From Candidatus Nucleicultrix amoebiphila FS5 (GTDB lineage: Bacteria; Pseudomonadota; Alphaproteobacteria; Caedimonadales; Nucleicultricaceae), in NCBI RefSeq assembly GCF_002117145.1, contig NZ_CP008743.1:1054001-1118000 (forward strand): 64,000 bases of DNA, written 5' to 3'. The notes below the pieces were generated by a model that ran no database searches, had not been told where the DNA came from, and saw only the letters and a program-made list of their open reading frames with translations. Positions within the stretch are counted from its first letter, which is position 1, and each line of letters starts with the position of its first letter. Shown piece after piece: positions 22,765 through 26,337 of the stretch. The translations under genes and the position numbers were made by a program.

Positions 22765-23067
22765 ATGAGAATTATAGCGGTAAAAAACCTAAAGGAATTT
22801 TGGGAAAGGCACCCTCAAGCAAAAAACTCTTTAAAGTCATGGCATGATGAAACAAAAAAAGCGAATTGGAATAATACGCAGGATATCAAAAAGCGCTATA
22901 TACGTGCAGATTTTTTAAAAAACAATAGAGTTATATTTGATATTTCTGGCAACAGATGCCGCTTAGTTGTTGAAATAAATTACAATTTTAAGATCGTTTT
23001 TATTAAGTTTATTGGGACTCATAAAGAATATGAAGAGATCGATCCGGAGATGATTAATGAATATTAA
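22765..23067 (+). CDS. higB: HigB-type mRNA interferase toxin
   Basis: 100 residues, RelE-fold HigB family: opening IIAVKNLKEFWERHPQAKNS, middle SLKSWHDETKKANW and DIKKRYIRAD, core NRVIFDISGNRCRLVVEINY, and end VFIKFIGTHKEYEEID. These toxins cut mRNA on translating ribosomes. The antitoxin gene follows with an 11-bp overlap; the toxin-first order is normal for higBA. AGGGG lies ahead of the ATG. Confidence 0.9.
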   Translation: MRIIAVKNLKEFWERHPQAKNSLKSWHDETKKANWNNTQDIKKRYIRADFLKNNRVIFDISGNRCRLVVEINYNFKIVFIKFIGTHKEYEEIDPEMINEY

Positions 23068-23461
23068 GATTAAGCCAATTAAAACTGAACAGGATTATAA
23101 AGAAGCTTTAGAAAAAGTAAGCAAACTTATGTCTGCTAAAATAAACACTCCTGAAGGTGATGCGTTAGATGTGCTCACGACTCTAATAGAGGTTTATGAG
23201 GCCAAACATTATCCTATTGATCCGCCAGATCCTATTGAGGCTATAAAGTTTAGGCTTGACCAAGAAAATCTTTCAAGAAATGACTTGGCTACAATTCTTA
23301 AAGTAGAAAGAGGACGTGTATCTGAAATTCTTTCAAAAAAAAGAGCTTTAAGCATCAACATGATCAGGGTGCTTTATCAAAAACTTCGTATTTCTCCTGA
23401 AGTTTTAATGAGGACATACCCTTTAGCTAAAAAAGCGTCCACATTAAAGATTAGGGGCTGA
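23057..23461 (+). CDS. higA: HigA-type antitoxin with helix-turn-helix
   Basis: 134 residues. The N-terminal part (AKHYPIDPPDPIEAIKFRL) and the Xre-type helix-turn-helix near residues 75-115 (LSRNDLATILKVERGRVSEI) are standard for HigA proteins paired with HigB toxins. It neutralises the toxin and represses the operon. Starts inside the end of higB, so the two are translationally coupled. Confidence 0.9.
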   Translation: MNIKIKPIKTEQDYKEALEKVSKLMSAKINTPEGDALDVLTTLIEVYEAKHYPIDPPDPIEAIKFRLDQENLSRNDLATILKVERGRVSEILSKKRALSINMIRVLYQKLRISPEVLMRTYPLAKKASTLKIRG

Positions 23462-23560: not shown

Positions 23561-23887
23561 TTAATAAGAAAACATTTCTATAAGAGATCTCAAAACTTCA
23601 TGAGCGGTCTTTTGATGAATTTTTCCTAATTTCTTTACAATACGTATTTTATCAATTGTCCTAATTTGATCTAAGACGATCTGACCTTCTTTGCCTTCGA
23701 AGGTAATCTTAATTCTTGTAGGGTACTTACGTGACTTAGTAGTCATAGGAGCTACAATAATAGTGTTGATGTTCCTGTTCATCTCATCGGGAGAAATGAC
23801 AACACACGGCCTCATTTTCTTAATTTCTGATCCAAGAGTCGGATCTAAGTTAATAAGACAGATATCAAAACGCTTAATATCTACCAT
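23561..23887 (-). CDS. mazF: MazF/PemK-family endoribonuclease toxin
   Basis: 108 residues from the ATG at 23887. SH3-like MazF barrel: FDICLINLDPTLGSEIKKMR, PCVVISPDEMN, VAPMTTKSRKYPTRI and GQIVLDQIRTIDK. These enzymes cut single-stranded mRNA at short motifs. The ATG overlaps the stop of the antitoxin gene by 7 bp, which makes translation coupled and places the antitoxin first. Confidence 0.9.
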   Translation of the reverse strand: MVDIKRFDICLINLDPTLGSEIKKMRPCVVISPDEMNRNINTIIVAPMTTKSRKYPTRIKITFEGKEGQIVLDQIRTIDKIRIVKKLGKIHQKTAHEVLRSLIEMFSY

Positions 23888-24132
23888 TTCCACTCATCTA
23901 CGTCCCAGTTCGTTGTAGAATATTCGTCGAGCAGCTTATCATCACCTGCTAATGCCATCTTTTTAAATGAAGAATCCCAATTATGCCTAGGTTTACGCTC
24001 GATATTGCGAAGGATAACCTTATCATCTTCGATTTCAAGATCTACAGCCTCTTGGAAATGACAACTCTTAAAAACGTACTTAGGAAGACGAATTCCTTTT
24101 GAATTGCCAATTTGAATGATATTGATACGCAT
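23881..24132 (-). CDS. mazE: MazE/AbrB-fold antitoxin
   Basis: 83 residues from the ATG at 24132, with GGAGG 5 nt upstream. The N-terminal swapped-hairpin DNA-binding domain reads IIQIGNSKGIRLPKYVF; the tail with DEYSTTNWDVDEWKW is acidic and tryptophan-rich, as expected of a MazF-binding segment. Autorepressor and toxin antagonist of the mazF gene downstream. Confidence 0.88.
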   Translation of the reverse strand: MRINIIQIGNSKGIRLPKYVFKSCHFQEAVDLEIEDDKVILRNIERKPRHNWDSSFKKMALAGDDKLLDEYSTTNWDVDEWKW

Positions 24133-24347
24133 ACTTGCCTCCATGTAATTACAATATAATTACATTTGCGATAAATGTCAACGCTTTCCAAAAGATTGTA
24201 AATTCAACTTTTGTTCTTCTGATAGAAGATCTCTTGAAAATTATATTCAAAACCTTTGAATTTCCTACACACACATCGTCATAATATTCTGCAATGTTAA
24301 ACCTATAATAGCTTGATTTTTTGCGCAAAAAATGATTATGTATATCG

Positions 24348-24359
24348 TATATCGATATA
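24348..24359. promoter_or_regulatory. Palindromic operator ahead of the higA-like/sulP pair
   Basis: TATATCGATATA is a perfect 12-bp palindrome, with the half-repeat TATATCG just before it. It lies 23 bp before the TTG start of a helix-turn-helix gene and is a likely autoregulatory site. 24145-24347 shows no gene on either strand that I can support. Confidence 0.45.
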
Positions 24360-24382
24360 TGAAATAGCTTTGGAGCGCTGTC

Positions 24383-24694
24383 TTGGTCAAGAAGTTTACA
24401 CAACACCCCGGTCAGGTTTTAGGACAGGTCTATTTAGAACCCCATGGCATCACTCAAACAGCCTTTGCTCAACATTTGGGGTGGACTTACGCGCGCCTTA
24501 ACGAAATTGTAAACGCTCGAAGGGGCGTGACGGCTGATTCAGCGCTCTCTTTTAGTGAAGCAATTCCCCAAACAACCCCTGAATATTGGCTAGATTTACA
24601 AAGGGATTGGGATATTTTTAACGCACGAAAAGAACACCGTGCAATCCCGCCCATGGAATGTTTTTCCATTCATAAAATAAAGTTAATGAAATGA
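24383..24694 (+). CDS. Orphan HigA/VapI-type antitoxin-like regulator
   Basis: 103 residues with a TTG start; GGAG lies about 9 nt upstream. The sequence is a typical HigA addiction-module antidote: HPGQVLGQVYLEPHGITQTA, AFAQHLGWTYARLNEIVNAR, RGVTADSALSFSEAI and TPEYWLDLQRDWD. Normally a HigB (RelE) gene stands just upstream; none is present in the 250 bp before it. Instead its stop overlaps the start of a SulP transporter gene by 4 bp (ATGA). It may therefore have become a transcriptional regulator of that transporter; this is inference. Confidence 0.85.
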   Translation: MVKKFTQHPGQVLGQVYLEPHGITQTAFAQHLGWTYARLNEIVNARRGVTADSALSFSEAIPQTTPEYWLDLQRDWDIFNARKEHRAIPPMECFSIHKIKLMK

Positions 24695-26337
24695 TTGCGA
24701 TTTTAGAAGCCCATAAATCTGGATTACTACACCCTAAACATTGGAAAACAAATATCGCTGCTGGCGTCATTGTTGGTGTTGTGGCGCTTCCTCTTGCTAT
24801 GGCCTTTGCCATTGCATCGGGGGTAAAACCTGAGCAAGGAATTTATACAGCCATCATTGCGGGCATTATCGTTGGCTTATTTGGGGGAACGCGCGTCCAA
24901 ATTTCAGGTCCAACAGGCGCGTTTGTCGTTATCTTGTCCGCCATCACAGCAAAGTATGGCATCAATGGTTTGCAAATCGCCACCATTTTTGCAGGCAGTA
25001 TTTTGCTATTGATGGGCTTTTTAAAACTTGGCAGCGTTGTAAAATTTATCCCTTATCCAGTTGTCGTCGGATTCACCAGTGGCATTGGCGTCATCATTTT
25101 GATGGGGCAATGGAAAAGTTTTTTTGGGTTGCCTGTTGCTCTTCCCATTGATGCTGCTTTTTATGATAAACTTATTTTACTTTTACACGATCTACCAAAT
25201 TTGGATCCCAAGACGACGCTCTTATCTCTCTTGAGTCTATTTCTCGTTATTTTTACACCTCGGTACATAAAAAGCATTCCCTCGCCCTTAATTGCAATGG
25301 CAGTTGCAACGCTTATTCAGTCCTATTTTGATTTTTCGAGCATCGCCACAATAGGGTCTGTTTTTGGAGGACTTCCTCACACATTACCTAAATTTCAACT
25401 TCCTGATTTTTCTACGGTCTCCCTTACCAATCTTCTTTGGCCAGCATTTACCATCGCTTTGTTGGGGGCAGTAGAATCACTTCTCTCAGCGTCAGCGGCT
25501 GATTCAATTGTGGGAACAAAGCACAGCTCTAACAAAGAACTGATAGGACAAGGCTTGGCCAATTTTATTACCCCTTTTTGGGGTGGATTTGCGTCAACGG
25601 GCGCCATTGCACGGACAGTTACGAACATTCGACATGGAGGAAATAGCCCTATCTCTGCCGTTGTTCATTCTCTCGTTCTCGTGCTGACGCTCTTAATTTT
25701 AGCGCCCTATGCGATGCATATCCCCTTTTCTGTTTTAGCGGCAATCTTATTCGTCGTAGCGTTTAATTTGTGCGATGTATCTGAATTCATGCATATTGTC
25801 ATGAAAGCCCCATGGTACGATATGTGCGTGTTAATCATAACGTTCATTCTGACTGTTTTTACAGACTTGGTTACAGCTGTGTTTTTGGGCGTGATACTCT
25901 CAACTCTCTTTTTTGTCCTCAGAACACAACAAACAAGAGACATAAAAATGAGTTCTATCGGAATGTTGTGGAAGAAATTTTCTGAAAGCAATATCGCCTC
26001 TACATCCTTAGAAAATGGTATCATTTATAATATCTCAGGACCCATGTTTTTTGGAGCCGCTGAAAAAATTGAACATGCTCTTTCATCAACCCATACAGAT
26101 CCAAAGTGTGTGGTTTTTCGTTTACAAAATGTTCCTTTTATCGACTTAACGGGACTGGAAACGCTTTCAAAAATTGTTGAGCAATACCATAAGCGCGGTG
26201 TTAAAGTTTACTTCTGCGAAGCAAATAAACGCGTATCAAAAAAACTCTCAAGGGTGGGGATTTTAAAATTGGTTCACACCAACGAAGTATTTCCTTCTTT
26301 GGAAGAAGTGATCAATTTTCAGAATAAACGCGCTTAA
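24691..26337 (+). CDS. SulP-family inorganic anion transporter with STAS domain
   Basis: 548 residues. About 10-14 membrane segments, with the SulP signatures ALPLAMAFAIASGVKPEQGI and GGTRVQISGPTGAFVVILSA at residues ~30-85, followed by a cytoplasmic STAS domain (residues ~440-540: CVVFRLQNVPFIDLTGLETL). Members carry sulfate, bicarbonate or dicarboxylates; the substrate cannot be read from the sequence. The start codon overlaps the stop of an antitoxin-like regulator, so translation is coupled. Confidence 0.9.
   Translation: MIAILEAHKSGLLHPKHWKTNIAAGVIVGVVALPLAMAFAIASGVKPEQGIYTAIIAGIIVGLFGGTRVQISGPTGAFVVILSAITAKYGINGLQIATIFAGSILLLMGFLKLGSVVKFIPYPVVVGFTSGIGVIILMGQWKSFFGLPVALPIDAAFYDKLILLLHDLPNLDPKTTLLSLLSLFLVIFTPRYIKSIPSPLIAMAVATLIQSYFDFSSIATIGSVFGGLPHTLPKFQLPDFSTVSLTNLLWPAFTIALLGAVESLLSASAADSIVGTKHSSNKELIGQGLANFITPFWGGFASTGAIARTVTNIRHGGNSPISAVVHSLVLVLTLLILAPYAMHIPFSVLAAILFVVAFNLCDVSEFMHIVMKAPWYDMCVLIITFILTVFTDLVTAVFLGVILSTLFFVLRTQQTRDIKMSSIGMLWKKFSESNIASTSLENGIIYNISGPMFFGAAEKIEHALSSTHTDPKCVVFRLQNVPFIDLTGLETLSKIVEQYHKRGVKVYFCEANKRVSKKLSRVGILKLVHTNEVFPSLEEVINFQNKRA

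Follow-up and report, generated by a model that had tools for sequence, protein, structure and literature searches.

In the 64,000-nucleotide stretch of DNA analysed here (the window), the gene of a HigA-type antitoxin without a PF05015 HigB partner overlaps the gene of a SulP-type anion transporter and is preceded by a predicted operator. Comparison of the sequences makes it likely that this HigA is a domesticated antitoxin, which would be devoted to repressing its own operon, higA-sulP. A domesticated antitoxin tied to an anion transporter had already been suggested in an earlier note on this DNA; the absence of HigB, the recurrent link to SulP and the operator at HigA-linked sulP genes largely bear the suggestion out, with the amendment that SulP is not the sole partner of such HigAs.

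Gene content of the higA-sulP locus

The features of the locus are shown in Table 1. The product of higA was assigned to the HigA family by its profile score (TIGR02607, cut-off 47.7 bits); its HTH_3 score of 22.1 bits is just below the cut-off, and the solved structures nearest to it are 6f8s (GraA) and 3trb (C. burnetii). The HigA-type protein, the ATGA overlap with a transporter gene and the palindrome ahead of higA were all recognised in the earlier note, with the right coordinates; the operator begins a few bases earlier, at 24341.

Table 1. Features of the higA-sulP locus and of the genes upstream of it (positions in the window).
Feature	Position	Strand	Basis or remark
PF09907 HigB_toxin and HTH partner	22765-23461		toxin gene 22765-23067
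MazF (PemK, PF02452) and MazE-like protein	23561-24144	-	MazF gene 23561-23893
Predicted operator, 26 bp	24341-24366	+	inverted repeat, clade conservation
Distal half-site TATATCG	24341-24347	+	
Central palindrome TATATCGATATA	24348-24359	+	sole exact copy within the window
Distal half-site TGAAATA	24360-24366	+	
Shine-Dalgarno sequence GGAG	24372-24375	+	sequence; 7 nt ahead of the TTG start of higA
Solitary HigA-family HTH protein, 103 aa	24383-24694	+	TIGR02607, 72.5 bits
ATGA stop/start overlap, higA-sulP	24691-24694	+	sequence; suggests translational coupling
SulP/SLC26-family anion transporter with STAS domain, 548 aa, Legionellales-type	24691-26337	+	PF00916, PF01740, tree

A PF05015 HigB gene directly upstream of higA, as in a HigBA type II system, was not found, and the nearest gene on that side is the divergent MazE-like gene. 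When a higB remnant was sought upstream, only weak short matches were obtained, on the wrong strand or inside neighbouring genes, and none was credible. The search for a distant HigB partner, proposed in the earlier note, was extended to the whole 1.84-Mb window genome (G000) and gave zero PF05015 HigB matches; the PF05015 toxin is also absent from the genomes SZAS-38 (G392), SW_31 (G394), G859, G395 and G393. The claim that no toxin stands beside higA holds for PF05015 HigB and has to be limited to it, as two other toxin-antitoxin modules lie close upstream. Both of their toxins, PF09907 HigB and MazF, are immediately accompanied by an antitoxin of their own, the MazE-like protein having been named by position and sequence, without a Pfam match. 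Together with the solitary HigA, these modules form a small toxin-antitoxin cluster. The window genome consists of a single contig, is 96.7% complete, and has no SSU rRNA match (its gene may have been masked or may be lacking in the assembly). The ubiquinone genes of this genome include COQ7 and a UbiH-type gene, which, with its apparent place outside the class of Legionella, suggests an alphaproteobacterium.

The product of sulP is a member of the SulP family, with 269.1 bits against PF00916 (Sulfate_transp) and 66.3 bits against PF01740 for the C-terminal STAS domain. Its nearest kin are found in Legionellales, with 58% identity to Legionella SulPs, and 102 of 143 Legionellales genomes contain a strong relative. 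The SulP core plus STAS is common to the window protein, DauA (C4-dicarboxylate) and BicA (bicarbonate), but the window protein scores under both equivalog cut-offs: 475.8 bits against 614 for DauA (NF008660), its best NCBIfam match, and 300.7 bits against 880 for BicA (NF050096). The best solved relative is 6ki1, which we take to be BicA.

The predicted operator

A perfect 7+5+7 inverted repeat, TATATCG-N5-CGATATA, extends over positions 24341-24359 and includes TATATCGATATA. The layout of the whole predicted operator, with a central palindrome and two distal half-sites, is of the GraA/PaHigA type and is conserved: the window site can be aligned with six operators of other HigB-less HigA loci in the order distal half, central palindrome, distal half (the G396 stretch covers part of its site only), and it has zero mismatches to the clade operator. 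Such a layout is bound by two dimers of GraA in P. putida and of HigA in P. aeruginosa (PMC6393540; PMC6987408). The palindrome noticed earlier is beyond chance, since 31 of 47 related HigBA loci have TATATCGNNNNNCGATATA with 0-1 mismatch ahead of higB, a quality of match that 0 of 200 shuffles reached at any of these loci. Its position before higB in these relatives suggests that TATATCGNNNNNCGATATA represents the ancestral HigBA operator of the clade.

A site with at most 2 mismatches in the 450 bp ahead of sulP was sought at 76 SulP loci. The operator was present at 5 HigA-linked loci and at 0 of the 71 others, where at least 4 mismatches were counted (Fisher P = 5e-8, a value that ignores shared ancestry). 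It lies between higA and sulP in Legionella adelaidensis, inside the divergent higA/sulP gap in SZAS-38 and SW_31, and upstream of yjdM-sulP in G395, and in G396 sulP has its own operator copy about 3 kb from higA. The G571 operator is located at the 3' end of higA, away from the sulP promoter.

Genome-wide, sites with at most 2 mismatches were no commoner than those of a reversed control pattern in most genomes, so that a wider regulon is unsupported and any regulon would be local. A genome-wide regulon in the window genome was likewise rejected, with 5 such sites against 10 for the reversed control. Two operator-like, seemingly intergenic sites of this genome, neither of them above chance, can be mentioned here: G000:C1:2736-2754 (L212), with 2 mismatches, beside an XRE-type regulator-like gene, and G000:C1:296220-296238 (L214), with 1 mismatch.

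Relatives of the pair and loss of the toxin

A scan of 84,980 species genomes provided 51 HigA loci, the majority of which are HigB-HigA pairs, HigB being missing in a minority; more HigB-less copies were added by searching Legionellales and the class of Legionella. When unique loci scoring >100 bits were counted, SulP was found within 3 kb of 8 of the 21 HigB-less HigAs and of 0 of the 33 HigB-paired ones. Without the window the counts are 7/20 and 0/33 (Fisher P = 5e-4, again ignoring shared ancestry). The pair is therefore not confined to one strain, as the earlier note had allowed for: higA and sulP are direct neighbours in four genomes besides the window, and SulP is at most 3 kb away in three further ones. 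The two genes have the same direction, are 158 bp apart and are followed by yjdM in Legionella adelaidensis NCTC12735 (NZ_LR134433.1); in G571, SZAS-38 and SW_31 they are adjacent and divergent, with DabA after SulP in SW_31. The gene order in G546 is higA, pckA, sulP, yjdM, and about 2 kb or less separates sulP from higA at two loci of Legionella. The HigA-linked SulP of SZAS-38 is short (453 aa), with the membrane part alone matched and the STAS domain seemingly missing.

Other genes accompany HigB-less HigAs as well. The closest HigA relative of the window protein (74% identity) is encoded in G859 (L216 10013-10315, minus strand), where an ATGA overlap joins higA to an NDH-1/Hyf-like operon (L216 2833-10016, minus strand) that encodes membrane and peripheral subunits (PF00361 twice, PF00146, PF00346, PF01058), and the HigA operator is located upstream. 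The same ATGA coupling at another operon suggests that a HigA of this kind can serve different membrane systems. Behind most HigB-less higA genes of Legionella stands a conserved gene for a spermidine-synthase-like protein (L030 4458-5252, L188 and others), and at several Legionella loci the HigA operator is found in the gap between the two genes.

In the HigA tree, those HigAs near the window that are without HigB fall into two clades, one with the window, G859, SZAS-38, SW_31 and G571 (support 97/87) and one of 13 Legionella-type proteins (support 100/100); the window branch is long. A higB just before the gene in related genomes was named in the earlier note as evidence against domestication. 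Such a higB was observed ahead of higA in more distant relatives, but the two clades, with 18 HigAs in total, have none, as antitoxin domestication predicts. Nine of the 13 rows of the second clade are without a SulP link, most of them beside the spermidine-synthase-like gene, and SulP is the sole partner seen repeatedly across the two clades, where the SulPs involved come from separate lineages. The HigA-linked SulPs fall into three SulP lineages, with at least 5 label changes on the SulP tree, which indicates that the HigA-SulP link arose repeatedly.

The residues of GraA that touch the toxin GraT were named in the GraTA paper (PMC6393540), and the corresponding columns were mapped onto the HigAs by sequence alignment to GraA, a distant structure. 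Compared with HigB-paired HigAs, the HigB-less ones are more variable at the contact columns and less variable at the HTH columns, with mean entropy changes of +0.62 and -0.27, respectively (permutation P = 1.5e-4, ignoring shared ancestry). In the clade of the window, residues unusual for HigB-paired relatives make up 54% at the contact columns and 7% in the HTH. At the contact columns of four HigB-paired control groups, 6-17% of the residues are unusual, and the group with 17% is also nominally significant (p 0.006, again ignoring shared ancestry). By the alignment to GraA, the toxin-contact columns are relaxed in HigB-less HigAs, and the DNA-recognition positions 37-58 are mostly invariant in them. 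The toxin-binding surface of HigA thus appears to have been lost.

As to origin, the best HigA from the window's own class, by E-value, is just 41% identical and the best SulP from that class 50%. Since the window genome is apparently outside the class of Legionella and both genes are closest to Legionella-type ones, a transfer is likely, and to judge from the sequences higA-sulP was probably acquired from a Legionella-like donor.

Proposed regulation and alternative explanations

According to the model that we prefer, HigA would descend from a HigBA toxin-antitoxin system whose HigB partner was lost long ago. Two HigA dimers are predicted to occupy the 26-bp operator just upstream of the higA start and, once bound, would block transcription of both higA and sulP. 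The operon would be expressed when the HigA level drops, probably by proteolysis, an assumption taken from antitoxin biology and favoured because no toxin is available to modulate HigA. Translation of SulP would be coupled to that of HigA via the ATGA overlap, and the level of anion uptake could in this way be set by HigA.

The presence of two other toxin-antitoxin modules within 1.6 kb upstream might instead suggest that HigA is an anti-addiction factor or a remnant antitoxin of a toxin-antitoxin island, followed by sulP by accident and coupled to it without regulatory meaning, and many orphan antitoxins are indeed decayed systems or have been proposed to act as anti-addiction modules (PMC7354431). 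We regard this as quite unlikely, because seven other genomes have the SulP link and HigB-paired relatives lack it throughout, the operator stands ahead of sulP at HigA-linked loci alone, and it is the contact columns that drifted and not the DNA-recognition columns, whereas an anti-addiction role would preserve the opposite. It is extremely improbable that HigA is still a true antitoxin, acting in trans on a distant toxin or on the neighbouring PF09907 HigB or MazF; their toxin genes are close at hand (Table 1), but both have an antitoxin directly beside them, the genome contains no PF05015 toxin and no credible higB remnant lies upstream, and the contact columns have changed.

The variety of partners has to be weighed separately, as HigA might regulate its own synthesis only; sulP would then simply ride along in the operon, and the targets under selection in this clade would be various genes of membrane systems or metabolism. 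The ATGA-coupled Hyf-like operon in G859, PEPCK between higA and sulP in G546, and the spermidine-synthase-like gene beside the Legionella copies are all consistent with such a role. It is nevertheless unlikely in our opinion, given that SulP alone recurs in both HigB-less clades, with separate SulP lineages, and that sulP operons not adjacent to higA (G396, G395) have an operator of their own. Very doubtful is a more elaborate version, by which two HigA lineages would have lost the toxin independently and would now repress transport operons, with the transporter titrating HigA in place of the toxin, for example through sequestration by STAS at the membrane, which would let transport status influence the transporter's own transcription; since the SulP of SZAS-38 is seemingly without STAS, titration by this domain could not be universal. 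Dedicated autorepression of higA-sulP by a domesticated HigA remains the reading that we favour. Points that speak against it are the operator counts, which support no wider regulon, the second-clade HigAs that have no SulP link, the place of the operator in G571 and the excess of unusual residues at contact columns in one HigB-paired control group.

With the HigBA systems that contain a TIGR02607-type HigA (P. aeruginosa HigA, P. putida GraA), the window protein shares the family, the conserved HTH and the operator layout. It differs from them in the lack of a toxin gene, in the drifted contact columns and in the transporter as operon partner, and the palindrome is TTAACGTTAA in those systems and TATATCGATATA in the window. 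A HigA-like protein of E. coli, YbaQ (PDB 2eby), is annotated as a putative HTH-type regulator and is distant from the window HigA (24 bits); to our knowledge, neither a toxin partner nor a target of YbaQ has been characterised, and it is not known to have a SulP link. Antitoxins that moonlight as regulators are already known, P. aeruginosa HigA repressing the non-toxin gene mvfR by way of its own palindrome (PMC6987408), and reports of orphan antitoxins are common (PMC7354431). P. aeruginosa HigA, however, keeps its toxin and is bifunctional, whereas the window HigA is toxin-free and lies inside the operon that it presumably controls. In the open-licence literature on orphan antitoxins, domestication and Legionella SulP, we found no report of a toxin-free HigA recurrently tied to a transporter.

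The fate of antitoxins after toxin loss is an open question, and most orphans are dismissed as decay or as anti-addiction factors. In the present case the steps can be read from the sequence: the toxin gene is gone, drift has set in at the contact columns, the segment that reads the DNA has stayed fixed, and the operator is found at a new target. This offers a testable model of how an antitoxin may turn into a metabolic regulator. It also supplies a regulator candidate for the SulP-type transporters of Legionella and of bacteria related to it.

Regarding the anion, the DabA gene next to sulP in SW_31 is a hint of bicarbonate, and a carbon substrate of either type could be compatible with PEPCK in G546. 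The usual partner of DabA is DabB, and a SulP partner is unusual. The genes for SulP and DabA at locus L184 (4242-8437, minus strand) have 4 bp in common.
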